In this document: positions 1 to 50,083 of the stretch, one piece after another
Layout: the number at the start of each line of letters is the position of its first letter
Numbering within the stretch: the first letter of the stretch is position 1
Notes under the pieces: generated by a model
What the model saw: the letters and a program-made list of their open reading frames with translations, nothing else
What the model was told of the DNA's origin: nothing
Database searches by the model: none
Program-made: the position numbers and the translations under genes
From: Hydractinia symbiolongicarpus
Lineage: Eukaryota > Cnidaria > Hydrozoa > Anthoathecata > Hydractiniidae
DNA length: 64,000 bases
Reading direction: 5' to 3'
Assembly: GCF_029227915.1 (NCBI RefSeq)
Contig: NC_079889.1
Span: 9,238,001 to 9,302,000, forward strand

Positions 1-155
1 GTGAACTTTCTGTCAAAGAAGGAACCGTATTAACCGTCATACAAAAATATGATCAGAAAGGCAACGAAGAATGGTGGTATGTTGAGTATGATGGCCAACA
101 AGGTTATGTTCCGCGCGATTATCTTGTTTTTGTAGATGAAAGTCAAATGTGTTGA
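1..155 (+). CDS. C-terminal SH3 domain, last coding exon of an adaptor/RhoGEF-like protein (partial)
   Basis: The window opens inside an exon read in the frame that starts at base 3 and ends at the TGA at 153-155. About 50 residues are visible. They form the back half of an SH3 domain: the ELSV start, a GNEEWWYVE strand with the WW pair, and the GYVPRDYL peptide-groove signature, then a short tail ending in SQMC. The D-x-x-GN-x-EWW pattern resembles the final SH3 domain of DNMBP/Tuba and ARHGEF37/38 proteins, so a membrane/actin adaptor is likely, but the rest of the protein lies outside the window and the exact family is inferred. No frameshift or stop interrupts the piece. Confidence 0.75.
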   Translation, partial: ELSVKEGTVLTVIQKYDQKGNEEWWYVEYDGQQGYVPRDYLVFVDESQMC

Positions 156-1031
156 TGCCTGTTTCGTCGTATTGTAGCGTCCTTCTCTTTTTAAATATAT
201 CGCGCCCCATCTTTCTCTCCACCTTTTTTAAATATAAAGTTTAGGATTTAAAAACCTTATTAAGGTCTTCCATATTTTTCTCATCAGATATAAGTTTAGA
301 TCAAAACTTACTTAAACAGATTGGAATTTAGTTTATTTGTGATTTTATAGAGGTGTACACCTCTATTTAGACGAATAAACACCATCAGTTGTGAGTGTGA
401 AACTCATTAGCTAAATTATCTTTTTTACTGAAATTTTGTGTGTATATATAGAGTAAGCCTGTAATTTTTGCCCCGCTTGTATTTTTATACTTACCTGCAT
501 AATTAGTAGCTCGTTAAAATTTAAATAAATTATTATTTACAATTATGATTATTACACAAAAATCCAACTTAGGCTCTTAGTCTGTCTTTTTCAAAGTAAA
601 AGGATGTAACAGTAAGGACTAAGTTGGAAGTTGTTTATTGCACAATAAAATTGCAGTTTAGACGAAAATAAAGTAGAAGTCGAATTATCTTTCTTTGGAT
701 GCAGGGACACTGTCTTTTGAGCAAATTGTTAATTTCGTTTACCAACAATTATATATCATTGTCTAAATCTGCAGAGTTTAAATGAATTTTTTAATATATA
801 CATATGTAATAAACTTTTTTATGTTTTTTGTATTTAGTGATTGCCCTGGGTTTACAATGATAAAATGTTACCGTGAGCATTCAAGAGTTAATGATTCTAA
901 CTAACTTGGGTTTTTTTTATTTGTAATGCAATATTTTCCCCACCAAATTTATTTGCACAAGCCGCAGAACTGTGTGTTAGGTTCTCTCCGGAAGATGAAC
1001 CTGCTCGTGTATTTCTAACACAAAGCCATCT
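156..1031. other. 3' UTR and intergenic DNA
   Basis: AT-rich sequence after the SH3 gene. It contains AATAAA-like motifs near 523-530 that could serve as poly(A) signals. I see no gene or repeat family in it with confidence. Confidence 0.4.
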
Positions 1032-1762
1032 CTAATGCGTTCGTACCCGTAGTGCTTTGCGTCGTTTTAAATCCCCTGGGCTTACCTTCCCGATACTTGC
1101 CCTGCTATTGGTTAGGCGATGTATCGTTTCCTGCGAAACCAGGTTAGTTACAACTCTGAAAGTATTATTGGGAAATTGCACGTTTTTATGTCATTCTCGA
1201 AATGTACAAACAGTTAGGCTGTAAGACTTTTACTTTGGCAGGGGTGTAGGCCGAGTAACCAAAGTCGGAAATACGCTAGCTCCACTTTCAGCAATGTCCG
1301 CATTATTAAAGTAATCCGCTCCACCACCCGGAGATGTCAGAAATTGGGGCGTGTCAACGTAAGTAAAGAATAGCTCTTTAAAATTTTTGATCTAACTAAG
1401 TATGAAAAATGTAGTTCAATAAGTTTAGACCGCGTTCTGAAATTCCACAGCTATCGATAAATCCTGTTTAAACTTTATTCATACAAAAATATTTACAATT
1501 TGAAGACATTTTTTGATAAACAAATTGTCATCATAGCGATTAATTTGTTTTTGCAAATTTCCATGGAATTATGTATGAAATGAAAAGTAAGGAGAGTACT
1601 TTTTAAGGGGAATTGCGAAAGCTTTTTTGATCAACTTCTTCTACCTCCTTTCGTGGAAAATACTTTTGCGTTTAACCCGTAGACTTCGTACACCGACACA
1701 CCAACATGCTGTCCATTAATCAGAACTCGTGACCACTCAACTATGAGATATAAGGTTGGGGC
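1032..1762 (-). CDS. Unrecognised protein, C-terminal three exons
   Basis: Three open stretches on the minus strand join with matching phases and GT-AG borders: 1762-1645, 1375-1234 and 1155-1032, ending in a TAG at 1034-1032. Together they give about 127 residues. The first exon reads LYLIVEWSRVLINGQHVGV, a beta-strand-like pattern. The second begins ELFFTYVDTPQFL and has a GGG turn and a proline-rich RPTPLPK end. The third is basic and ends KALRVRTH. The region is richer in GC than its surroundings. A possible preceding exon lies at 1977-1938, but its frame is less certain. I do not recognise the family. It converges on the SH3 gene to the left. Upstream exons would lie at higher coordinates and were not found. 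Confidence 0.5.
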
Positions 1763-1977
1763 CTACATGAAAGAGAATTTAAATTCGTTCAGGTAGTAAT
1801 AATCTGTTAAAAATTTACATCATGTCGAATTTCATCATTTACAATGGTTTTGTATAAAAGGATAAAGTAATTATTTTGCTCTTTGTTTTCCGCCGGTGGG
1901 AAGCGGAATCTTTAAAATCGCCCGGGAAGATAGATACAGCCCAGAGCCTTGATGCCTCGAATTTTTTTATATCCAGG

Positions 1978-2479
1978 CTATTGAAAAAGTTCCAGTACAA
2001 CGCTAATCTCTAGGTTGTTTTTTACTTGCTCTTGTCTGTTTACCCAGCATTCATTATAACTAACTGTACACATATATAAATCACCAACAACAAAACGAGT
2101 AAGTTGTTGATTTGTTATCCAAATCCTGTCCTGGAGTGATGTTAGTCAAAAGTTTATAGCTAGCTAGCTAAATGTGATTTTAGAATTAGTATCTAGTTGA
2201 AAGCAGAAAACGGTGACTTATGTAGCTAACCCTGTCTACCAGGTTTTACTAATATAAAACTGTAAGTTTAGCGTAGGGTAAGTTGACAATTGGTTTTCAT
2301 TATTGAGTCCTTTTTAGTTCTGGATGCTTCATCATGGCATTTTCACCCACATATTGCTATTCATTTTCCTGACTTTAGCTGACGTCATTTTAAGGGATGG
2401 GCAACAAATAGAGTATATCTAAGAGGGAAGATGTCTGCACCAAAATTGTCATGTTTATCAGCTATATGTCAAAAGTGTA
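1978..2479. other. Intergenic AT-rich DNA
   Basis: No open frame with plausible splice sites and no clear repeat. Short palindromic runs of the tetranucleotide AGCT/TAGC occur near 2158-2172. Confidence 0.3.
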
Positions 2480-2810
2480 GACCTTTTTGAATGTTTACAT
2501 ATTCCGTGGTAAGCCCTTTCGGCTTTAACAATTGCGTGGCAGGCAAAAGGATGCAAGCGCTAGGTAAAGTGAGGTCCTTTTTAGTTTATTTCTTTGCACA
2601 AAGGTATCATTAAAAGTTTATATGAATATATGTCAATCAGAAGTTATCCATCTACACTAAATAATAGTTTAAAGCCTCGAAAATGTCTCCGTAGAAAGAA
2701 ATGGGCTGAAAAAGACCTTTCTTCAGCAAACTTCTGCATCATTATTTTTGCCACACAGTTGTTAGAGCTAGAAGGGCTTACCTCAGAAAATGTAAACATT
2801 CAAAAAGGTG
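2480..2810 (+). mobile_element. MITE, family A copy 1
   Basis: The element starts ACCTTTTTGAATGTTTACAT and ends with the reverse complement TGTAAACATTCAAAAAGGT. It is about 330 bp and has no coding capacity. A second copy lies at 26657-26938 in the opposite orientation and shares both the termini and internal blocks, such as the GTGGCAGGCA and ATTTCTTT-CGG stretches. A MITE mobilised by an unknown transposase is the simplest reading. Confidence 0.7.
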
Positions 2811-3379
2811 TAAGCATGTATGTTTTTTAATCTCCCAAACACCAACTAACACCAAATTTTCTTTCTTCTTTTGATTAAGGTATATAATTTTTATGTATGT
2901 CTTTAAAGAGTTAAGGCGTGACTCAAAAAATGTTTGGCTAAACTTTTTTTGAGGTTCCCAAAGAGGTTTGCTTGGTCGACCGAAAAAAAGAAGCATTTTG
3001 TTTTAAATATTTGATCAGTACTCAATTACCTTACTGACCCTTTTTTTTTGTCTGCGCTTTTTACGCAGGCCTAATTCCGCCCCTGGAGAATTTTGGTGTA
3101 ATGTTACATCAACGATAGACTCGGTGCGACCTGCAAAAATTCCTAAAAACCGTTTTACCGCTCAATTTTTTACGCTCAAAAGGGATGCCGCGCTATTGAA
3201 GATATCAACGGACATCAAGACAAGTCACAAGACTCAGTATAGGTAACTTCAGTTATAAACGCTAACAAAATATGAAAGAAGGTTCACATGAAGTCAACAT
3301 TGTCGTGCAAGTCTAACTCACAACAGTTTGGTAGGTTTTCTTAACTAGCCGAGATACCTGGTGTCGAAACGCTGGGTTA
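2811..3379. other. Intergenic DNA
   Basis: Nothing recognisable. There is a T-rich run near 3041-3049 and no coding pattern. Confidence 0.3.
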
Positions 3380-4190
3380 AGCCACAAGTAACTGTGCAGA
3401 GTGCCTAATTAGAACCGCAATCAGTGTCACACATTCAGGTGGAGCGTTTTAGTACAGGTATGCAGTATGTTGTAAATGTAGTTAAGGCGACTACAAAATT
3501 TAAGTGTTTCAGTTGCAATGTATTTTTTAAAATATAACTTTAGCTGAAACAAAAACACAGTTTACAATTCGTTGCTTTCCCGTCATACCAGAAACAGTCA
3601 GCCAACCTTCTTTATTTTTTGGAGAATGTTCCCGGTGAAAGTTCAAAAATGAATTTTACTTCAGGCTAAGTGCTTAGTGCAAGTAAACAATGTTGCACAT
3701 CCATATAGGTGTAATATATACCCTTTACCGAAACAAACTTTAACGCAACTTCAGTTAAACAGAAATACAGGAAACAGCCCGTTGTTAACATTGGACTGAG
3801 CTTAGTACAGGAAAATCGTGTTACACATGCGTTTATGCTCAATACCCTTTTAGCACAGTTTACAACCCGTTGTTACCCCGTCTGGAAAAAACAATTAGCC
3901 AATATTACACTGGACTAGTGACACTGAACTAAGCACTTAGTACAGGTAAACTGTGTCACACATGCCTATAGGCGTAATAGCCTTTTCCAAAAAACGTATC
4001 ACAGATTCAAATTAAATAAAAACACACACAAAAGTCTGTTTTTAACACCAGATTAAACGTCTATTCCAGGTAAACCGTGTTACACATGAGTAATAGGCCT
4101 GATACTATTTTTCTAAAACATTTTATTTATCACAACGATTTAAACAAAAACACAGGAAACAGCCCACCGTTACACTGTCCAGTTAACAAA
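3380..4190. repeat. Diverged tandem repeat array
   Basis: The same phrase order recurs about four times: AGTACAGGTAAAC, then TGTTACACATG with a TATAGGCGTAATA variant, then an AAACAAAAACACAG block, then ACAGCCCGTTGTTA. The spacing is roughly 150-200 bp and the copies are heavily mutated. This points to an old tandem duplication or satellite fragment. Confidence 0.55.
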
Positions 4191-4522
4191 ATTTACTCTG
4201 CGGAATATGTTTTCATGACAATAATAAAATGTGTAGTCACCTAATTACCTTTAGCATCATAAAAGTTGTGGTAGCTAGCTAAAAACTGCATTTGGCTATT
4301 CTCACTTTTTAGCCAGAGGTAGCTTAAAAGCTATAGCTAGATCCTTAACTGTTTTGGGATCTAAAAAAGGCGTAGTTCATTGTTAGTAGATAATAGTTTA
4401 CGTCTTAGTTTCCGTGTAAATTGGTCAAATGTTGAAAGAGTTTTCATGTCGCTGTCAAGGAATTTGTTTCATAGTTCTAGTCCTCTAATCGTTTCTAGCG
4501 CATATTGTCTTTTTTACATCAG

Positions 4523-5023
4523 GACGGTGATATCAACATGACCCTGGAGGAGGCCTCGCTCCGTGACCCTCAAATCGTAAATTATTCAGTAGGTGGCTAC
4601 GTCTGCGGTAATGAAAGTTTAGTCAAACCTCCTGTAACATCAGACTATTATTGTTTTAGGGTAATTCTCATCGTGCGATTAAGAATTATGGCAGCGGTGA
4701 TAACCCCACAAGTATATGCTGGACGTCAACCCGACATCAGAGGGGAGGGGGGGGGGGGTAAACCTAAACCTTTGACACCTAAATAGTTTATACCGAAAAA
4801 GTATTTTTTAAAGAACAGAAAGTATTTTCGACTGTATTCTATATGTTTTAGAATGAATGTTGTAACGTCAAAGATTAACAATACCCAACTAAATATTACA
4901 TTTTTGAAGTTTGAAATTTAGACAGGGAATGGTTGGCTAGCTAACCTCGTTTTATACAAGGACACAACCAGATATGCTCATTTCCGCTGTACCTATGTTA
5001 AAGAAACGACAAGAGGCTGGAAA
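4523..5023 (+). CDS. Candidate exon chain of an unknown gene (tentative)
   Basis: Three stretches with plausible acceptor and donor sites keep phase across the joins: 4523-4576 (reads DGDINMTLEEASLRDPQI), 4660-4757 (starts GNSHRAIKNYGSGDNP and ends in a poly-G run) and 4961-5023 (reads TQPDMLISAVPMLKKRQE). The composition is protein-like, and the first segment follows a good polypyrimidine tract. No start or stop codon was located, the poly-G run makes the second donor uncertain, and I do not recognise the family. It may be a real gene fragment or chance. Confidence 0.3.
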
Positions 5024-6252
5024 GTAGGTCGCATATTCAACATAAACGTAGAAAGTTTAGACAGTCTAGTACCCAGTGTCTATATGACAACAGAGATAGA
5101 AAAAAAGGGTAGATACAAGGTTTTCATTAACTTTTTTGTTGTATTTTTTAAAAGAGAGTTGAAAGAAAGCTATACCATTGTTCTAAATAGATTCAATTCT
5201 AAACATTGGACTCGCTCAATCCTTTTTTAAATGTTGAAACACGGAAACGATCCCATTGTGTAAATTAGAGTCGTTTGTTCTAAGTACAGTTTGATCTCGT
5301 TCATTAAAATTACATGTAAAAAAGAAAGAAGAGGATTCGCTTAATTAAGTTAATTGTATACTATTTTGTGGATTAATATATAGCCTGAAATTTCGTTAAA
5401 ATAAAATTAAAAGTTAAAAAGTAAAGCCAGAAAAAAAAAAGCGAAAGAAATGTTTCCTATTTAACACTCCACCGCTGAGTTTCTGAATCTTAGCCCGATA
5501 AATATTTAGAATTGATAAAAAGCAGCTACACCGGAGCGTAATTAATGATACAATCAAGCCAGATGTTTTTCGTAGCATAGCTTTGATAAAACGAAGATGT
5601 TATCTCTTCTTTTGGGCGAAAATAAAAGAAGAAGAAGAAAAAAGATAATTTGACGAATTTGTTGAGTGAGTGCAGCCTAATTTGATTTCCGTGGAATATT
5701 TTTCCTACTTTGGGTTTTTCAATCCTTTCTTTGTTTACTCTTTGTTTATATTTTACTTTTTTATTTCCACCGTTTTTATATTTTGTTGTTTTGTAACAAA
5801 TTTTAAAGTTCACAACATTCGTTTATTATTATTATTTTTTCAATGTTTGTTGATTTTTGTGTAGTTAGTCCTTTTTGTTATTTTTTTATGGTTTTTAATT
5901 TCTTTATGAACATCTATATTTATTTACATTTCTCTCATATTTTTATGTCTATGATTACAACTGTACTACCCATTCTCCCTCTCTTTTTTCTTTGATAAAC
6001 TTTTTTAATTAGAACTTATGGAAGTCATTTTTAATTTAAAAGACAGTGTTTTCAAGAGCAAAATTTTAATATCAGCCTGTGTTGTTAAGAATAAGATTCG
6101 AATTTGACATTATTTCAGCATACATTTGTTGTTTTTCACTTTTATTTAATTGACTACAAAATAAAAAGATTAATCATTTTTTTAAATGATTGTTTCGCCG
6201 CTTGTTTGTTAGATCGCACAAATTCCAGCCTCAGTCGCTTAAATTTTCAACT
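5024..6252. other. Intergenic AT-rich DNA
   Basis: Long T-rich and A-rich stretches. Open frames here encode low-complexity F/Y/I-rich peptides with no splice support, and I consider them non-coding. Confidence 0.4.
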
Positions 6253-15707: not shown

Positions 15708-18183
15708 TCATGACAGAGAAATTTGTGTGAAAATGATGACAAAACCAAGAAGAAGGAGAGCAGCTCCACAAAGAAAATATTTTGGTAGCTGACCAAATTC
15801 TGAACAGCTTCGTGTATGTTCACTTCTCATGTTCCGTCCATTTCTTCTCTTCGCTACTTTCTCTTTCAACACCTACAAAGGACAACATACATTGTTGTTA
15901 TTGTTAAATTGAAACACCTTCCGATAATCGTCGTTACACTCACAAAAAATTAATGCACAAAGCATTTTGATGTACTGTATTTTGCACTGTACAAACTTTA
16001 AAAATTCGACATCACAGTGCGAAAGCGCATTAGGCCCTTAACTCCACCTCGATTCCAGGTCTTTTTTTCGTGGTCGCCACAGTAGAAAACGATTAATCCT
16101 TTTAATACAAAATTGCTTTTACTTCACAGGTGTGAGATGCTGTACGGAACGAATATTTAAAACACAGGAGGTCTGGAAACGAAGGTGTATAAATAGTTAA
16201 AAAATAGCGTCATAATATCCTGCATTGAAAGAAAAATGGAGTTTAACACCTGTCTGAAAAACAAACAAGAAGCCCTGCTAATTCGTTGTGCCAAACATTC
16301 GAAGAGGTTTGGTGCATGAAGCTGAATATAAAGCACACAAGTGACATTATATCTTACAACAAACGCAAATAAAACGAAACATGTCATAGAAAACTCACAT
16401 TTTAAAAGAAATTGCTAACAAAAATACAGCCTATCATTCATCGTTGAAAGTCTTGCGATTGAAACGTTTATGGTCTTAAACGGCATTTAGTTGAAAAATA
16501 TCAAAATTTTGATGTGAGCATCATTTTCAGCATACTTTTTTTATTAACTGTGCTAATTTTTGTCGAAAATAAAGTAGTTTTAATTTTTGGACAAATTTTT
16601 GCCTGTAATGACATTTAGGTGACAAAAAATCGAATTTTTGTATCATCATCATTTTCAGCATACTTTATTTGTTAACTGTGCCAAATTTAGCCGAAAATGA
16701 AGTTGTTTTAATTTTTGGACCAATTTTGGCCTAAAATGGCATTTAAGTGACAAAAATCAAAATTTTGATGTCGCCATTATGTTCAGCATACTTTTTTCGT
16801 TAATTTTGCTAATTTTTGTTGAAAATGAAGTAGTTTTAATTTTTGGACCAATTTTGGCCTAAATTGACAATTAACGTGCCAAAAAATCAAAATTTTGATC
16901 TCACCATTATGTTCAGCATACTTTATTTGTTTACTGTGCAAAATTTTGTTGAAAATAAAGTAGTTTTAATTTTTGAACCAATTTTAGCCTAAAATAACAT
17001 GTCGGTAACAAGAAATCAAAATTTTGATGTCACCATCATGTTCAGCATACTTTTTTTGTTAACTGTACCAAATTTTGTCGAAAACAAATACCAATTTTGG
17101 CCTGAAACGTCATTTTAATGAATTCCCAGTACTTAGAGAGCTTGGGTACGAAGTTTAAATCTGTGACGTTGCAGTTGACCATTTGGGACAAGGTTAGTTA
17201 GTTAGTCAGTTATACCAATACTATCCTCCTCTCAGAGGAACGTAAAATCCCAGGGTCGATTTTTTCTCAAAAAATGCTCCGAAAGAAAAAAACGACGGTT
17301 TTAAAGAATTTCCTACGCTTTTGGGCGCGGAAATTCAATAATTGTCGCTGTGGCGGTATGGTATGCGAACTATTTTTGTGTTCCCGTACAACGAATATAT
17401 TTAGTAACTTGCTAATTGCGTTTTTAAATTTCTTACCTCTTCTATGTTCACATGTACCCCCGTAACTGTTTCATAGTCTGGTGGGGAATCTATCAAAATG
17501 TTTTCCACAAGAGATTTATAAGACGGAGGTAAAGAGTCATCGATAGTAGACGAATGACAAGCGTTATCTGAACCTGAGACTTTTAAAAATGAACTGTTGT
17601 AAGTTGAGATATCTTTGTTACTGAATATTATCTCATTACGAGTTCTATCAGCTATTTCTTCTGATATAATAATTTCACAATTACTGTCATTATTTGAGAC
17701 CACAACGCTGTCATTTGTTAAGATGGATAAATTATCGGTGACCGGTAAATTGGAAATGCGTTTAACGTGATTCGCACAAAGTAATAATACTGAATTGTAT
17801 TGCTCTTCATCGCAGGTGCCTTGATTAGAAAAATATAAGGTATCGAGCGTTTTAGATTGTCCTATGTGGAGTGGAGTGTTATTTAAGGAGTCATTAAAAG
17901 AATCTAAGGATCTCGTATCATCTCTCTGTTCTGCGTTTTCTCCTTCGTTGATACAAACATCTGAATTGCGCATATTGTTTTGTTCAATACAAATTCCATT
18001 TTCTCGAATTAAATTTTTGGTAGGATTTGCATTGGTACATGCTTGGTTAGTGGAAATATTGTTTTCTTGCAGCGCAACATTAAGTTCTTTTTTGTTTTTG
18101 CTTGCTCTAACATCTCCAATTTCATCTGCTTGCTCAGCAAGGTAACTTTCAACAACTTCTATTTTAACAGAGGTGTCAGTCAT
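15708..18183 (-). CDS. Tail-anchored PPxY-motif protein, two exons
   Basis: Exon 1 (18183-17437, 249 codons) ends at AGAG/GTAAGA. Exon 2 (15872-15708) follows a TTTGTAG acceptor in phase 0 and adds 54 codons, giving 303 residues. The N-terminal 249 residues are acidic, polar and rich in N, S, D and E, without a signal peptide. PPSY (219-222) and PPDY (234-237) are WW-domain ligands. Exon 2 has a basic KEKVAKRRNGR stretch and then one hydrophobic helix (about 281-303) that ends the protein. Basic cytosolic flank plus terminal helix means a tail anchor with the whole N-terminus cytosolic. PPxY pairs commonly recruit NEDD4-family E3 ligases, so an adaptor role is a fair inference. I do not recognise the family. 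The 1.56-kb intron carries a tandem repeat array. Confidence 0.7.
16470..17115. repeat. 128-bp tandem repeat array
   Basis: Five units start at the phrase TCAAAATTTTGATGT near 16502, 16630, 16757, 16888 and 17016, a period of 127-131 bp. Each continues with TTCAGCATACTTT, AGTAGTTTTAATTTTTGGAC and TTTTGGCCTAAAAT. A partial unit lies at each end. The array is inside the single intron of the PPxY gene. Confidence 0.85.
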
Positions 18184-23501: not shown

Positions 23502-25831
23502 TTATAATTCTTGCTGTTCTTCTATTTTCTTTATCTCTTTTTTGCTTAACGTGCGGCCATCACATAAGCACGCGTTGCGCTGTGCCTCTTTGAACGCTGC
23601 GCAGCCTAGACCAACCGTGCCAGAATGCATCAACTCGATCAACTGTTTACATTCCATCGATTTATCATTCGAACGTTTTCGATGAATGCTTTCGAATTCG
23701 CACGCGTTGTTTAAGCACTCTTTAAACTCTTCGTCGCAATTGTCTCGATTTGAATTGCATGTGTCGTAGCACAAATCGTGTTCGTTACAACATTCCGTAA
23801 ATCCAGGGTGATCAGACACATCAAACTAAAAAAACATGAACACTATTTCTTTCAGTGCTTGGAAAATATTTGACGCGAGTTGTAAGTTAAGGGGTGGTGA
23901 TGTTATGGGTGCAGGGGTGGTGATGTTATGGGTGGGGGATGTTGATGTTATGAAGAGGGGTGGTGATGTTATGGGTGAGGGGTGGTGATGTTATTGGTGG
24001 GGGATGGTGATGTTATGAAGAGGGGTGGTGATGTTATGGGTGAGGGGCGGTGATGCTTGAAGGAAAGGTGGGGGTGGTTAGGTCCTCTGGAAACTTTAAC
24101 TCTAGTTAATTAAGTAAAAAACCCAGCTACCAATTACTTAAATACAATGACAAAAAAATTAGTTTTGAAAAGACTTAACGTCCATGAAATTTAATTTTCT
24201 CTTAAGCAACGCACCTTTATACCCATAGAACCACACCCATTGCTTGATGGGATGTGTCTTGGATTTCTTGTAGGCTGATGTCCTTAAAAAAGCCAATGGA
24301 ATAAAATTGTCATATAAAGAGTAAGAAATTGCATACTTGTAACATTTAGTAACAATTTCAACATTAAATATCTCGAACAAACTATTCAATAATTTGTCCT
24401 TTCAAAAAGATTCAATGTGATCATTTAATGCACTTGTTAATTCAAAAACCACTCTGTACCTTTGAATTACCTTCCAATCGGATAGCATGGCGAAAATTTG
24501 ACAAAATTGATGACTATTGTCAACATACGCAAAATTGAGTGCAAGTTATAAATTCCCTTACATATCGAAAAAAAATTTGCTGTTTCGCATTTTAACAAAA
24601 TTTCATAGCAGATCTACAACAGACAAACTCCAAATAAATGCTTTATAAAAAGGAACTTTGTGTTCTTACCCAAACTTTCTTGGGTTAAGGAATATTCCTA
24701 ATAATGTGGTGTAAAACAACCTTTTTTAAAGTCAGTCAGTCAGTCAGTCAGTCAGTCAGTCAGTCAGTCAGTCAGTCAGTCAGTCAGTCAGTCAGTCAGT
24801 CAGTCAGTCAGTCAGTCAGTCAGTCAGTCAGTCAGTCAGTCAGTCAGTCAGTCAGTCAGTCAGTCAGTCAGTCAGTCAGTCAGTCAGTCAGTCAGTCAGT
24901 CAGTCAGTCAGTCAGTCAGTCAGTCAGTCAGTCAGTCAGTCAGTCAGTCAGTCAGTCAGTCAGTCAGTCAGTCAGTCAGTCAGTCAGTCAGTCAGTCAGT
25001 CAGTCAGTCAGTCAGTCAGTCAGTCAGTCAGTCAGTCAGTCAGTCAGTCAGTCAGTCAGTCAGTCAGTCAGTCAGTCAGTCAGTCAGTCAGTCAGTCAGT
25101 CAGTCAGTCAGTCAGTCAGTCAGTCAGTCAGTCAGTCAGTCAGTCAGTCAGTCAGTCAGTCAGTCAGTCAGTCAGTCAGTCAGTCAGTCAGTCAGTCAGT
25201 CAGTCAGTCAGTCAGTCAGTCAGTCAGTCAGTCAGTCAGTCAGTCAGTCAGTCAGTCAGTCAGTCAGTCAGTCAGTCAGTCAGTCAGTCAGTCAGTCAGT
25301 CAGTCAGTCAGTCAGTCAGTCAGCTTAAAAAGTGTGATGGCTACCTGGAACAACATTACATGGGACAAAACCACAAAACAACACAGAGTCAAGACAAACA
25401 TTTACGCAAAGTAATTACAAGGATAAATTTTAATTTAGAGGGACTGTCAAAAACTGTTAGCATCAAATCACAAAGCAACAATGGAGAGAAAGGAAAGCAG
25501 CTGCAATTTGAAAATGTAATCAGTTTTTATACGAGTTTATGAAATGTTTATGAAGGATTGCACTGGTTATGTTGAACAAATCCATATTGTGTGATACTTT
25601 CTCTCCTTATTGATCAATTTTAAAGTTATGGTTTACTTTTACTAGTGTTATTATAAGTTTAAAACCAGACAATAGACGTTGAAACCAACCTTTTGGACAT
25701 TTTAGCTCACATGTGTTTTGACCAGAAAGTATGGAAAAAACCTTTGCTAAATTTCCCAAGCCACTAAGATCTTGAGTGCTTGCCTGAATCACAACATAGC
25801 ACAAAATTTGAAAGATTTTTTTCCATTCCAT
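23502..25831 (-). CDS. PLA2G12: Secreted phospholipase A2, group XII, complete, three exons
   Basis: Exons 25831-25690, 24282-24215 and 23825-23502 join with matching phases and give 177 residues, close to the 189 of human PLA2G12A. The first ATG (context ACAATGG) opens a hydrophobic signal peptide ending near residue 20. Exon 1 contributes CELKCPK. Exon 2 carries the unusual calcium loop NGCGSMGI. Exon 3 has the active-site block CCNEHDLCYDTC with the His-Asp pair, followed by the group XII pattern of cysteines up to ACLCDG. The enzyme would hydrolyse the sn-2 ester of phospholipids outside the cell or in the secretory pathway. The retained histidine favours catalytic activity, unlike the XIIB branch where it is replaced. 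Intron 1 holds a 593-bp microsatellite and intron 2 a GT-rich minisatellite. Confidence 0.92.
23888..24060. repeat. GGGTGGTGATGTTATG minisatellite
   Basis: Seven or more imperfect units of GGGGTGGTGATGTTATGGGT and GGGGATG-TGATGTTATGAAGA alternate, giving a higher-order pattern. Located in intron 2 of the phospholipase gene. Confidence 0.8.
24731..25323. repeat. (GTCA)n microsatellite, about 148 uninterrupted units
   Basis: The tetranucleotide GTCA repeats without visible interruption for 593 bp. The repeat lacks stops in its frames, so a spurious SQSV-type reading frame arises, which is not a gene. It lies in intron 1 of the phospholipase gene. Confidence 0.98.
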
Positions 25832-42752: not shown

Positions 42753-43976
42753 TATTGTAAACTTGGTTATTATATAACAAACTACAGGTTATAAAATCCA
42801 AGTTTGTGCTTACAATTATGGTTAGCTACGTTTTATTAAAGTCATATGACGGTAAATGTACATGCCTACTTTAATTATCTACTGTAAGCACCTACAACAA
42901 CTGTCAACATGACATCACTTTTGACCAATACATATCAAAAAGGAATTGTTTATTAGAAAGCGAAAGTAGCAAGACTTTCCACCACGCACGGGCGAAAAGA
43001 TTATTTATAAACTTTTATTTACGCACCTAATTAAATCTTTCGCTAATCAAAGCAAGAACTAAAATACGAATGTCTTACTTTTAAACGGGTTTAAAGTCGA
43101 TATATCCAATGGTCGGCCATGTTTATAGCCATAATCAGGTTATAATCAGTTCTCGAGCACCATCTTTTGATAGACATTCCATTTAAAAGGCGAAAGCTCT
43201 ATAAGTCTATGACGTCATTACAGAACAATTAGCAAGTAAGATGTATAAAAATTCCTTGGTTTGTTCCTGCAAGGTAAAGTTAATAAATTTTTTATGACTT
43301 TGAAATCTTTTTTGAGTGATTTGCTGTTTCTTTTAAATATCGAAAGCATGCTATATCTTTACCTTAAACTATGATTTCCTTATCCAAAAAACTTATAAGA
43401 ACAAATCTTTACTTTGGTCAATTGTTTTGCGTTACCAGCTTGGCATGTAGACCAAAATTGTTTTCTGTCTAGTTTTACTTTGCAAATTACAGATAGTTTA
43501 CTTGCCAACTAGATGATATAAATGTTATGGAAAAGGTGCAGTCACGGAATTTTGGAATTTCAATGTCTGATCTGGTATTGAACTGTGTATAGCTATAGGC
43601 AATTTACCCGTAATATCATTATATCATCTGTTTATCTAATCAACTAATGTTGTATATATCAAACCACTCTTTTTCCCTGTTCTTAGGCGCAGACCCTGCC
43701 ATGCAAAAAATGGTCTTTTGCGAAATGATACAGTTAACTAGCTAGCTAGCTAAGCTAGCTAGCTACAAAAACAGAAATTTTGAATCGACCATTTAATAAT
43801 GTCCATTTCATATCCCTATTGGTTGCACGTGCCACATGTTTTACGCTTGCCTTTCTGATGGGCTAGCTAATAGTTATGTATAGCTTAGTTATGTATAGCT
43901 AGATATAGCTAGATACTTTATAATGGCTAGACTTTTTAGAATACCACCTGTCATTTTAATTTTACAATTAAATTAA
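42753..43976. other. IKK upstream region
   Basis: Probable promoter side of the IKK gene. Palindromic AGCTAGCTAGCT runs at 43739-43766 and GTATAGCTAGATATAGCTAG words at 43877-43916. No gene seen. Confidence 0.35.
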
Positions 43977-44159
43977 CCTACATGACCAACGCGTAGGCCA
44001 ACAAAAATAAAAAAGAGAATAAAATCCAAGTAATAATAAAAATAACAAACACAAAAATATAATAATTAAAATTAAATAACAAAAAACTACAGTAACAATC
44101 CAAACCACAAAAAGGAAATACATGTACAAACCAACGCGACCTACGCGACCAACGCGTAC

Positions 44160-44315
44160 ACCTGAAATTGCAATGTAAAGGTTTCTTCGCGCATAAAAGC
44201 AATGCATTGCAATCACGTCCGTTATTAACGATAGCTTTCTCCTAAAATTGCAATGCAAAGGTTTCTTCGCTTATAAAAGCAATGCATTGCAATCACGTCC
44301 GTTATATTAACGACA
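44160..44315. repeat. 90-bp subterminal direct repeat at the transposon left end
   Basis: Two copies, 90 bp apart, of AAATTGCAATG(T/C)AAAGGTTTC, continuing through AAAAGCAATGCATTGCAATC to CACGTCCGTTAT (from about 44165 and 44255). Each unit also holds the palindrome ATTGCAATG...CATTGCAAT. It lies 60-215 bp upstream of the ATPase start codon and could serve as promoter and transposase-binding DNA. Confidence 0.85.
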
Positions 44316-44378
44316 GCTTTAGCGACGAACGGCCGACGTAACAATATAGCTTCTTTACTGTATTAACAAAGAATTAAA

Positions 44379-46993
44379 ATGTCTATAAAAACAATCATAA
44401 AATCACAATCGGATGAAACTTGGGCAGAACTAAATAAGAAACTCATGGAGCATGAAATAAACTACAATAAAGTTTTGACAGAACCTTTGTATCAGTTCAT
44501 TGACGCCATCGCTAAGTCCGTCGGAACAAATATCGGATTCGTATTACCTTCAATTTTAACTACAATTAATTACTTAGCATCAAGCCAAAATTTCAATTGC
44601 GAAATAAGAGATGGTTATGCTGTTAATTTGAATACGTTCTTCTTATTCGCGGGACAACCATCGACAGGGAAAAGTCCAGCAATCAAAGTCAGCGTCAGTA
44701 ATCCTTTAACAGGTTTGGATTTACATAAGGAATTAATTTCCTGTTCTACATCATCCGGTTTAACAAAGTTATTATCAAAAATACAAAGAGCATTTATTGT
44801 TAATCCAGAGATTCAGGAATATCTGCTAAAAATAATTAAACAAAATGACGAAAATGCGGCGAGCGATGTCGAAATATTATGCAAAGTTTTTAGCGGAGAA
44901 TCTTGCACCTTCAATTATGGGACTGAAAACAGAAGAGAGATTTCATCTGACACCACACTATGTATATTAGGTAAGCATCGGCTATTAATATTTAACTACT
45001 GATTAACATCCGCGAGCACACTCCTCCTTACTCAAGCAACTAACACGGAAACTCTCTTTCTCTCTCATTATTCTATATATAAACATTCTTTTTTTATATA
45101 TGTGCATAACTGAGTTGCAGCTTTATGATACTGTAACATTCTCGTTCTTTATAAGTGCATATCTGCGATGCGCTGCTGCTTTTATATGATGATCAAGATT
45201 TTGCTGTACGAGTTCTACACTAGTTTAGCAAAAATTTTGGACACAGTATTGAAGCAAAGGCATGCAATTACACCATTTTAAACTGTATTTTCAAAAAAAC
45301 ACATCACCATTTACATTACGTTAAAATGAATTGTATCAAACTTGGTGTATGCAACCACCTTTAATGTAAATTTTAAAAGCAAAATTGTACTTTTTTTATC
45401 CAGGTGCAACTCAGATCAAGACATTGGCATTATTGTTATCAAAAATGGATATGGGCAATGGCCTAATCGATAGATTTATAATTTCTATACCAACATGTTA
45501 TCGACCATTGCCAGAAGAACAATCACAAGCTAGCACTTTTTTAAAAACCAAAAATTTTAAAATAGATGACATCTACGAAAAGTTAGCAAAAACAAGTTCT
45601 GAAAACACACAATTTTATTTCGATGACGATGCTCAAAAGTAAGTTAACGGATACAACGAAGATTTTTTTAAATAAAGTTACGTCGGAATTTTGATCAGTC
45701 CAACTAAAACCGTTCATATATCATTGTTTAAATAAGCTGTAAAACTCAGGTAATAATTGAGTTAAAAGATTTAATTCGAGCTGTGTGTAGAGCTTGTGTA
45801 TTGATTCACAGGATCGCTCCATGGTTGGTTCCTATACGGGTGCGTTGACTCGGCTTTGGAAATTGGCCCTATTTTGTTCTAGGAGATCTATCTAGTTACC
45901 CACCTGGTTGATTACATTGATTATTTTTATTTATTGACCGTAGAAATCTATTTTACACTGAATTAATTTAAATAATCTTACTAATTACTTAACAAATAAG
46001 ACCTTTCATTTGCCGATTAATGAATCTGTTCTATTTTTACCAACATATCCCTAGTTGTCTACAAATAATATTATTTCTAGAATGTTTGATGAAATGGAGA
46101 AAAACTTTCTCATCGAACTCAATGACAATTTAAAAAATGGCAGACCAACTCAGAAAAATAAAACAACGGACGTCATTCCAAAATTAGCTGTTGCTATTCA
46201 TTTGTTGGAGCATATTTTTTTGCAAATAAATTCTGGAAGAAATAATACAACATTTCCAGAATCAATCACCTTACAAACCATGCAAAAAGCTTATTATTAT
46301 TCTCAAATGTTGACCGAACAAAAAGAATTTTTCAATGGTGTAAGTGCAGTTCTATTACTTAACATAATTTACAAGAACCTTTATTAAATTTTTCTAATAT
46401 TTATCAATCCATTTTTTTCTACAGATCTTATTCTAAAAACGAGCCAGTGTTTATATAATTTTATACAGCACACACACATTGCCTCATTTTGACAAAGGTG
46501 TCCCATTTCATATTTCATGCAAGCTTGACCGTTATATATTTCATTTTCAGCATTAATTTTTGTTATCTGATTAAGTATCACATTTGTCTTGTTTTAGTTT
46601 GTTTCAGACATGGTTTGCGAAAAAAAAATTAAAACCATCAAGCCACCAACTTTGAAAGATTACACCATTGCACTGTTAAATATGCAAGGTCGAATTGTCA
46701 CCTACCGGTCGTATAAACAATGTGCATCTAAAAGGTTGAGATCAATGATATCAAGTGACTACAAAAAAATATGTGAAGACTTAGTAATGATTAATGCTGG
46801 GAAGTTGAATTCAGTGAGATTGAATGGTCAGAGTGAAGAGTCATATATTTTCGTTAAGTTGCCGTACGACGAATTACCAGAGGAGGTCAAATCAAAAATG
46901 CAAAAAAATACTTACCTAACGAAATATGAAATGAATTCCCCGAAAAGCATCACGCAAAACATTATTGACGCGGTGCAAGACATCTTTCAATAA
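44379..46993 (+). CDS. Transposon-borne P-loop ATPase, DUF3987/primase-helicase-like, four exons
   Basis: Exons 44379-44970, 45404-45638, 46081-46337 and 46608-46993 join in phase to give 489 residues. A helical N-terminus is followed by a Walker A motif, GQPSTGKS (92-99), introduced by a hydrophobic FFLFA strand. About 40 residues later comes a Walker-B-like AFIVNPEI strand in which the usual Asp is replaced by Pro. Then come KVFSGESCTFNYGTENRRE and ILGATQIKTLALLL, with GNGLIDRFIISIP. These features match the DUF3987 family of helicase/primase-associated ATPases known mainly from bacteria and phages. The C-terminal 130 residues are basic and may bind DNA. Role in transposition or element replication is inferred. 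It sits on the same strand as, and upstream of, the transposase, separated by 0.9 kb. Confidence 0.8.
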
Positions 46994-47914
46994 AATATTT
47001 TTTTTATTTTCATTTTCATTTTATTTTCATTTTCAAAGTTAAGTAATAAGGATTATCGTTGCGTTTGTAAGTAATGAAAACCAATCAAATCCTTGCCTTT
47101 AATAACAAATTTATATTTTCTTTAGCAATAGGGTTGTTACAGAGTGTCTTACACACGTATTGTCAATAAGTTTTTTTTCACATAATGTAATAAAATTAAA
47201 AAATTTCATTGGTTTAACCTTGGAGGAAAGAATTAACTAATACGCTATAGCTAAAATCAAATAATCTACAAATAAAAACGCACTTCTATTTTTCCTAAGA
47301 AACGGTTGTTAAAGTGATGCCATAAAAGAATTTGTTTACTTTTAAAATTTTTATTATGTTTGTGCATCTTTACTTTGTTAATTTTTATTAGATTTATTCT
47401 CAATGATTGCCTATCAGAGTTGAATGTTATTTAGAAAGGTTACAAATAATGACTTAATACATGACCTACATTTTCAAGAAATTTTGCTGTGTCGACTTTT
47501 TTGTAAGAATATATTATGTAAAAATGTCGAAGCATAAAATTAATAGGAAAATATTTATACAAATATAAAAGATTATACTTGAATTTACGGTTAAATTATC
47601 TACTTATACAAAAATTATACATCACATTTCCTACTTTCATTTTTTTTTAACTTGAAACAAGGTCATTATTTGTTTTTTAGGTTAATATAGATTTTGTTAT
47701 TGCTTTATTAAATTAATTTTGAATGGCATGTTATGATTTAATTGAACACATGCATCATGTATTTTTATAGTCTTATTCATGCTATTTCGTTACTTGTTAA
47801 ATCGTTTACAATAATATTTCTCTGAGATATAAAATATATAAAACCCACAATCCTTAACGTTATTAGTGTATTTAAAAAAAATTTTGTTTTTCAGGTGCAT
47901 AAATAAATTAAACA
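46994..47914. other. Spacer between ATPase and transposase genes
   Basis: Very AT-rich, no coding frame. It probably holds the ATPase 3' end and the transposase promoter. Confidence 0.4.
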
Positions 47915-49252
47915 ATGAAACGAACGCGAGAGCATGCTAGCCAAACAATACAAAAAGTTGCATCTACATCAGACGTTTCCACTCAATGTGGATATAGCAC
48001 AAGTAGTTACAATAGAGCTACGAAGTCATCGTACATTAATTTCAGGTACCATACATATATGCATCAACATCTTTGTGTCATATTGGCTTATATTAACATC
48101 TTATTAATATCACTTTTTAATAAAAATATTAATTTCATTTTAGATACCTATTGAAAAATGTTATTTCAGACAAGGAAACCACTATTAATTGGTGTTTCCA
48201 CAACAAACTTCTAGCAAATAAAAGAAAGTGTCCTGTATGTAATTGTGACATGAAATACACGTTGTCAACAACATATTCATCGGATGGTGTAAAGTGGCGT
48301 TGCCAAAAGTTAGATCACACGAAAGATGTATCTATACGAAGAAATTCTTGGTTTGAAGGTTCAAACATGACATTAGAAGAAGTAATTGAACTGACGTACT
48401 GGTGGAGCACAGGTATGAAAATATTAATGAGATGCAAAACTTTTTTTATTTTGAACATCTTAAAAAAAACTTTAACTTATTCAGTGTTTTTCATTTTACC
48501 ACTTTTTTAAAAGACCAAACTCTCTAATATTTTTTTGGTTGAACAATCTCTTCTGGTTGTAGCTAAAAACACCTGTTTTATAGTTTCGCAGACCTTACTT
48601 TGTTGTTGATACTCTATTCCTAAAGTAAAAATCCGATCTTCTTTTATAAACAGGAACCGAACAAGTAAACATATGCCAAGAAATGGGTTTATCATCAGCA
48701 ACTATTGTGGACTGGGCAAACTTTTTGAGAGAAATTTGCGATGAGATAGTGATAAAACGTTCAAAACCGATTGGTGGAAAAGGCGTCAAAGTGCAAATTG
48801 ACGAATCTAAATTTGGAAAGCGGAAGTACCACCGCGGTCATAAAGTAGAAGGACAATGGGTCTTCGGAGGGATAGAATCTGAATCAAGAAAAAATTTTAT
48901 GATTCCTGTCGAAAAGCGAGATCGCAATACCTTGATCCCCATCATTGAAAGGTACATCTTACCAGGAACGACAATTGTCAGCGACTGCTGGAAAGCCTAT
49001 GACATTCTCGATGAACTAGACTATCACCATTTAAAAGTGAATCATTCAATTGAATTTGTAAACGAGTCTGGTGATCATACCAACAAAATAGAGGGGCATT
49101 GGCGACAAGCGAAAGCAGTAATGCCAAAATTTGGTGTCAGGAAAAAATTTTTTTCGTCACATTTGGGAGAATTTATGTGGCGATATGAAAATAAGGACAA
49201 AAATTTGTTTATGCAAATTATATCAGACATTTCTTCTATTTATAATTTTTAA
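47915..49252 (+). CDS. ISXO2/Merlin-type DDE transposase, three exons
   Basis: Exons 47915-48045, 48144-48412 and 48654-49252 join in phase to give 332 residues, a usual length for the family. A Ser/Thr-rich N-terminus is followed by a zinc-ribbon (CPVC 73-76 with Cys78 and Cys97). Next is the WFEGSNMTLEE helix region, and then the ISXO2 catalytic core: QIDESKFGKRKY (Asp183), IVSDCWKAYD (Asp244) and TNKIEGHWRQAK (Glu280, or Asn277 in the IS1595 sense). This is the bacterial IS1595/IS1016 fold that defines eukaryotic Merlin transposons. The protein would cut and join the element ends in the nucleus. All key residues are present and no stop interrupts it. Confidence 0.9.
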
Positions 49253-49392
49253 TAATCATGTCAGTTTTTGCTATTATAAATCCTTTATAAAATATAAAAG
49301 TTCTGCAGCTTGTGGAAAAATACTACTACATTCTTGACTCAAGCCTCCGTAGCATGTGAAGACTAACATTTGAAAACTATAACTAAAACTGT

Positions 49393-49735
49393 CGTAGGTC
49401 GCGTACTTTTATAAAAATTCGATCGTTCCGATACAAATAGAACGCGTAGGTCACGTAGGTCGCGTAGGTTACTTTTATAAAAATTCGATCGTCCCGATAC
49501 AAATAAAACGCGTAGGTCACGTAGGTCGCGTAGGTTGCTTTTATAAAAATTCGATCGTCCCGTTACAAGTAGAACGCGTAGGTCACGTAGGTCGCGTAGG
49601 TTACTTTTATAAAAATTCGATTGTCCCGGTACAAGTAGAACGCGTAGGTCACGTAGGTCGCGTAGGTTACTTTTATAAAAAATTGATCGTCCCGGTACAA
49701 GTAGAACGCGTAGGTCACGTAGGTCGCGTAGGTCA
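49393..49735. repeat. 66-bp tandem repeats at the transposon right end
   Basis: Five units start with ACGCGTAGGTCACGTAGGTC at 49442, 49508, 49574, 49640 and 49706, a strict 66-bp period, plus a partial unit before them. Because 66 is divisible by three, a repetitive LRDLRDLR-type frame appears on the minus strand, which is an artefact. Confidence 0.92.
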
Positions 49736-49792
49736 GTTTTATAAGAATTCTTATTTATTGCAGGGGGTATTCTAAAGTCGCTCCCTTTATAA

Positions 49793-50083
49793 TATAGATA
49801 GATGTGCATATTTTACATGGCTAGCCTCGCAAATATTGAAGGATATACCATGTCTATATTTCAAGAAGGGACCATGGCTTAGAGGAGAGTCCTGGAGTAT
49901 TTAATGCTCATTTTGAGCTACGCAGATCCAATTAGGGCCCATGCTCTACTAGACAACTCCCACCAAAACATCCAACGACCCACACAGCGTGCCATCTCCC
50001 CAATTTCCCTCACATGGCTTAAGTTAACCCGGGGCTGTGGTAACATTCACTCGCCCATGTTGAATCACCGTCAAGAGGAATCG
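49793..50083 (-). mobile_element. SINE copy 3 (minus strand)
   Basis: Reverse complement of the SINE family. The tail GATAGATG is on the left and the 5' end, at CGATTCCTCTTGACGG inside the B box, is on the right, so it is truncated within the tRNA head. It lies about 55 bp from the Merlin-like element. Confidence 0.85.

Follow-up and report, generated by a model that had tools for sequence, protein, structure and literature searches.

A Merlin-type transposon of Hydractinia in which a transposase gene and a DUF3987 ATPase gene move as one unit

Movement of a eukaryotic cut-and-paste transposon is generally taken to require a single transposase together with host factors. Among bacterial DDE elements, IS21 (IstA/IstB), Mu (MuA/MuB) and Tn7 (TnsABC) combine a DDE transposase with a P-loop ATPase partner that coats or chooses the target DNA and brings the transposase to it, and the ends of Mu and Tn7 carry repeated binding sites. 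Here we describe an element of the hydrozoan Hydractinia symbiolongicarpus, found in a 64,000-nucleotide stretch of its 480.9-Mb assembly (C15:9238001-9302000, hereafter the window), in which a Merlin/IS1595-type transposase gene and a gene for a DUF3987 ATPase lie between one pair of GG ends and have been inserted jointly, with target-site duplications of 8-9 bp. Three Hydractinia families and one unrelated contig carry the pair, and two gene arrangements are seen.

The closest described elements are Merlin transposons, which in the accessible text of PMC8101967 are characterized by GG ends, 8-9 bp duplications and kinship with IS1595; their inverted ends range from 24 to 462 bp, highly imperfect ones being accepted, and IS1595 members are described there as having a single transposase gene. 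According to the available part of PMC5862659, DUF3987 domains stand next to primases in prokaryotic elements, in the place of known helicases, and are themselves predicted to be helicases. Accessory genes are carried by lineages of another eukaryotic group, Kolobok, in which KolobokH has a RecQ helicase (PMC9587614, available in part).

The window copy is a complete two-gene Merlin-type element of 5,860 bp (43925..49784, + strand), flanked by the 9-bp duplication CTTTATAAT at 43916..43924 and, identically, at 49785..49793. Its left inverted end, GGCTAGACTTTTTAGAATACCACCTG (43925..43950, + strand), pairs imperfectly, by eye, with the right inverted end GGAGCGACTTTAGAATACCCCCTG (49761..49784, in - strand letters), and similar ends are found in the families B and C described below. 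The left end starts GGCTAGACTTTTTAGAATACC and the right end, read inward, GGAGCGACTTTAGAATACC, both 5'-GG. These ends were first placed by eye from the flanks; alignment did not pick the outermost bases, its top score of 28 falling on the subterminal repeat (of 300 random pairs, 95% scored 21 or less and the highest 135). They are confirmed exactly by the other two full-length copies of this family (family A), L009 (C6, 5,866 bp) and L010 (C11, 5,854 bp), which carry both genes and the same ends, match positions 1-5860 of the element end to end and have the same boundary at the left duplication. A preliminary description of the window had placed the ends at 43977..49738. The ACGCGTAGGTC-rich blocks on which it relied are real, but they are subterminal, and we reject them as termini because the CTTTATAAT duplications and the boundaries of L009 and L010 lie about 50 bp farther out. 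Gaps excluded, L009 differs from the window copy at 25 of 5,858 aligned bases and L010 at 36 of 5,848 (99.4-99.6% identity), and each has its own 8-bp duplication, CTATCTAG and TGTTAAAG respectively, distinct from CTTTATAAT. Three insertions of one unit with three different duplications show that the two genes move together, as one unit. The duplication of 8-9 bp that the preliminary description had anticipated is thus present, at 9 bp in the window copy and 8 bp in L009, L010 and the family B copies, and in all of these both genes lie between the same ends, as its reading of a two-gene transposon predicted.

The two genes lie on the same strand and are open in their predicted models, in agreement with the intact spliced pair reported earlier. 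The ATPase model comprises four + strand exons (44379..44970, 45404..45638, 46081..46339 and 46598..46993) separated by predicted GT..AG introns, and encodes 493 amino acids rather than the 489 first claimed. Exon 1 encodes the Walker A motif GQPSTGKS (residues 92-99) and a possible Walker B, FIVNPE (139-144); exon 2 encodes the ATQ of ILGATQ and the DRF motif, and exon 4 a conserved C-terminal region. The DUF3987-like character proposed for the protein is borne out by a match to DUF3987 (PF13148; E 8.8e-20, 71.6 bits against a Pfam cut-off of 27), and five relatives also score on this profile, at 45-82 bits. DUF3987 is the sole Pfam family above cut-off in these ATPases, and by profile none belongs to an IS21-, Mu- or Tn7-type ATPase family. 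Database protein P0001 (LOC130613599), 96% identical to the window ATPase, matches the phage families phrog_2373 ('DNA helicase', E 7.5e-9) and phrog_3022 ('DNA primase', E 1.9e-4); no primase domain was found here. The C-terminal part looks winged-helix-like by eye, although no profile match supports this. The transposase model, likewise open and with predicted GT..AG introns, has three + strand exons (47915..48045, 48144..48412 and 48654..49252) and 332 amino acids. Its third exon carries DDE_Tnp_IS1595 (E 7.6e-17, 62.2 bits against a cut-off of 27) with D183, D244 and E280 at the residues named in the preliminary description; the zinc ribbon attributed to the cysteine-rich region of exon 2 scores 14.6 bits, below its cut-off of 25.4. 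Database protein P0006 (LOC130614603) is 99% identical over 76% of this transposase.

The same pair is found in two further Hydractinia families. Family B, whose copies L018, L019 and L023 are 4,885 bp long, shares the gene order of family A and has an ATPase 46% identical to that of the window with introns matching in place and phase, and a transposase that is 61% identical and has no intron. Exact 8-bp duplications (GTTTGCTC, CATTTCGC, GGTAAAAA and TCCGATTG) flank all four B copies in which both ends were read (L018, L019, L020 and L023). A further B copy, L017, has the left end and an insertion of about 2.3 kb between the genes, its right end lying past the stretch read. The ATPase is open in L017-L019, as is the transposase, which is cut short in L020; L023 aligns piecewise with the B proteins, at 94-100%. 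In family C (L016, 6,235 bp) the ends are similar and the transposase is on the opposite strand, placing the genes head to head; the duplications, CCCAGGCC and CCCAGGTC, match at 7 of 8 bases. Terminal GG is common to the three families, and the inverted ends are short and imperfect (20 bp perfect in C; by eye in A and B). Two decayed relatives of A and B, L013 and L021, retain parts of both genes. Divergence between the A and B ATPases by codon position (0.41/0.27/0.64) fits selection on the protein sequence; synonymous divergence between families is saturated, so no ratio of nonsynonymous to synonymous rates is given.

Beyond Hydractinia, a scan of prokaryote genome contigs matched 273 stretches, of which one locus was confirmed, L025 (L025:1-4876), filed as a metagenome-assembled genome of Lentisphaeria. 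It encodes both proteins head to head, the ATPase 34% and the transposase 49% identical to those of the window (best tblastn matches); among the four proteins scanned against NCBIfam, only its transposase gave a match. The reading of the L025 ATPase is interrupted at the position of intron 3 in the window gene, and six junctions are compatible; the one with a GTAAGC donor would read IFVE/FLGEL, against FFNG/FVSDM in the window. Because of this putative intron we take the contig for eukaryotic DNA, which appears to have been misfiled in a bacterial genome. L025 carries GGGTATTCTGCAGTTACTCCC, similar to the window right end, beside a 75-bp array, its left end being off the contig; a second right-end-like sequence lies within the putative intron, at 3273-3298. 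Walker A, the Walker-B-like E, ILGATQ and DRF are kept in the ATPases of families A, B and L025, the decayed C copy departs from some of these motifs, and the C-terminal part is conserved across all four. No relative was confirmed when viral contigs were scanned with either the ATPase alignment or the L025 transposase, and phage records contained no tblastn match to the L025 ATPase.

The right end of each family bears an array of repeated sites. In the window this array spans 49404..49750 (+ strand; 66 bp x 5.3), with CGTAGGT sites in threes. With site words picked by eye for each family, the right-end arrays hold CGTAGGT 16 times (A), CGTTGGT 12 times (B), CGTTGG 10 times (C) and CGTATCC 9 times (L025), all forward, where shuffles gave at most 4. 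Left-end sites are few and all reverse (1 in A, 1 in B, 3 in C), and within the ATPase gene of L025 its site word has one forward and one reverse match. The left subterminal motifs of the window copy, ACCTACATGACCAACGCGTA and ACCTACGCGACCAACGCGTA (43976..44158, + strand), are inverted relative to the right array. Because the right end keeps its array regardless of which gene is next to it, the array fits an end function rather than a promoter.

Across the genome, a search with P0006 gave 77 matches, all of whose candidates were scored, grouped into 39 transposase loci. An ATPase locus lies within 10 kb of 27 of them, on the same strand in 26, where about 0.002 per locus would be expected from random placement. 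These 27 are not independent, since many belong to a single family; two on C3 appear to represent one duplicated stretch, and the L013 ATPase was included manually. The corresponding tblastn search with P0002 gave 120 exon matches, and with 90 of 130 candidates scored, the 47 ATPase loci counted are a lower bound. Twenty of the 47 have no transposase match within 10 kb. Among the four of these that were examined, L024 includes the beginning of a transposase, L011 and L012 are family A left-end fragments, and L029 (C8:13577001-13583500) contains an ATPase fragment that is 55% identical to family B across residues 1-128, the stretch showing neither a transposase match nor an element end. Such left-end fragments are seen on C14 (L011), C7 (L012) and C3 (L014). 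L012 retains element positions ~1-1331 plus the last few bases, with the duplication TAAAGTTT right after the break, and L014 retains ~1-122, followed by the duplication (A)ATTTGTTT; at the L011 break no duplication was found. The three may be products of end cutting followed by faulty repair.

On balance, we think that the ATPase of this two-gene Merlin/IS1595-type transposon probably serves as its helicase-like motor, acting at the right end. That the ATPase assists transposition or element replication, as the preliminary description proposed, is still an inference. The transposase would cut and join the element ends, and the ATPase, as the element's own second component, would be a motor with relatives among the proteins of prokaryotic replicons. 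Working at the right end, where the array lies, it might remodel or unwind the transposase-end complex or, alternatively, power the DNA synthesis by which transposition is completed or repaired, and it could perhaps act in trans. A helicase-like motor at this end is favoured because DUF3987 proteins are predicted helicases (PMC5862659, in the part available) and the PHROG matches agree.

Several observations weigh against this explanation. The activity of the ATPase, its expression and its need in transposition are predictions from sequence; the AlphaFold models were unusable (mean predicted local distance difference test scores of 38 and 47), and profile searches of solved structures gave no match in one case and a single match, at E 0.99, in the other. 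Of the three full-length family A copies, only that of the window has both genes open: L009 has a frameshift in the ATPase and a premature stop in the transposase, and L010 has frameshifts in both. Twelve of the 39 transposase loci have no ATPase within 10 kb; of the three examined, L026 and L028 hold ATPase remnants nearby, and the third, L027, contains a 1,807-bp deletion derivative of family B (L027:5091-6897) that is without the ATPase and flanked by an exact 8-bp duplication, GATGTATG, so that the ATPase is either dispensable in cis or was lost after insertion. On a quick transposase tree (n=114: six two-gene rows and those of rows P0007-P0125 with at least 255 aa), L025 is distant from the Hydractinia families, and four changes are required to account for the two-gene label. 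The pairing is therefore old and often lost, or was gained more than once, or is common but unseen, most rows being without a known neighbourhood. Searches of the protein database gave 1,085 transposase relatives, with Clytia and corals among the 120 listed, against 5 and 5 ATPase rows, Hydractinia being one of their sources. This disparity speaks against a common but unseen pairing, though the ATPase protein search scored 7,992 candidates and its few rows do not show absence; a widened search added one fragment, P0126, beside rows such as P0004 and P0005. On these counts, most Merlin relatives may lack the ATPase.

The same disparity, together with L027 and the description of IS1595 members with a single transposase gene (PMC8101967, in part), is what might be expected if the ATPase were a passenger that helps the element or its host in some other way, for example in copy-number control, and has no part in the chemistry of transposition. 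We consider this quite unlikely: the pair has been retained through gene rearrangement and across distant families, and the helicase-like homology and right-end arrays suggest a role on DNA. The main rival to a helicase-like motor, which we also judge unlikely, is that the ATPase resembles IstB, MuB or TnsC and acts by coating or choosing target DNA and bringing in the transposase, with no unwinding. Partner ATPases of bacterial DDE elements work in this way, and arrays of end sites would fit a large complex. However, by profile the protein falls in DUF3987 and close to phage helicases and primases, outside the transposition ATPase families, and the target duplications share no sequence by eye, which does not itself exclude such a role. 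That the two genes belong to unrelated elements nested by chance, or that a host gene was trapped between repeats, is extremely improbable. Those 20 ATPase loci without a neighbouring transposase would suit it, one of which (L024) has a transposase start; but the ends are identical and the duplications different in three A and four B copies, and most transposase loci are paired. We reject chance nesting on these separate insertions of the two-gene unit, and a trapped host gene on the same insertions and on the ATPase loci, of which there are at least 47. The two outcomes that the preliminary description named as fatal to its proposal, a single-copy host ATPase gene and separate elements nested by chance, are thus contradicted by the copy number and by the occurrence of the pair in three Hydractinia families and an unrelated contig.

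The window contains further repeats. An 80-bp tandem duplication (44161..44320, + strand) lies between the left end of the element and the ATPase start and is also present in L009-L012. Flanking the element on the right is a repeat (window 49794-50081) that shares 78% identity with sequence close to the family B copy L018. Elsewhere there are a perfect (AGTC)148 microsatellite of 594 bp (24730-25323) and a 128-bp tandem repeat of 4.7 copies (16484-17088).

A two-gene Merlin with a DUF3987 ATPase is unusual for this kind of element. The literature matches listed hold, by title or abstract start, no description of a Merlin/ISXO2 transposase paired with DUF3987 or another ATPase, Repbase and subscription journals lying outside this scope; 'Merlin' and 'DUF3987' are absent from the main text of PMC11067881, and 'Merlin' from that of PMC10411563. 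The accessible text of PMC8101967 reports no second Merlin gene, and 'second ORF' (open reading frame), 'two ORFs' and 'Hydractinia' are absent from its main text. As the preliminary description held, the element is of Merlin/ISXO2 type, having a DDE_Tnp_IS1595 transposase with a D-D-E triad, 5'-GG ends, 8-9 bp duplications and internal tandem repeats, the last reported in some Merlin families (PMC8101967, in part). It differs in that the elements of A, B and C have a further gene between their ends, departing from the usual, though not strictly defining, possession of the transposase as sole gene.

DUF3987, described from bacterial and phage replicons, is now found in animal nuclear DNA. The ATPase shares its Pfam family with PrimQH/All3500, in which, as described in the available part of PMC5862659, the PrimQH ATPase precedes a winged-helix domain; it differs in being encoded by a predicted intron-containing gene within a eukaryotic DDE transposon, with no primase domain found and a winged helix by eye only. 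Kolobok is likewise a eukaryotic DDE transposon with an extra gene for DNA processing, but its transposase belongs to another superfamily (4-bp TTAA duplications) and its helicase to another family.

The retained pair in an animal raises the question of whether such elements, like those of bacteria, also came to have energy-driven control, target choice or replication. This can be tested, since a laboratory model animal has nearly identical copies in which the genes are open. With IS21, Mu and Tn7 the element shares a DDE transposase accompanied by a P-loop ATPase and, with the latter two, repeated end sites; it differs from them in being eukaryotic and in having an ATPase outside their families by profile. 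Tentatively, it may represent an old branch of eukaryotic Merlin with a dedicated ATP-driven component related to prokaryotic replicon helicases, a separately evolved counterpart of the bacterial transposase-plus-ATPase systems in which movement is possibly coupled to replication at the right end.

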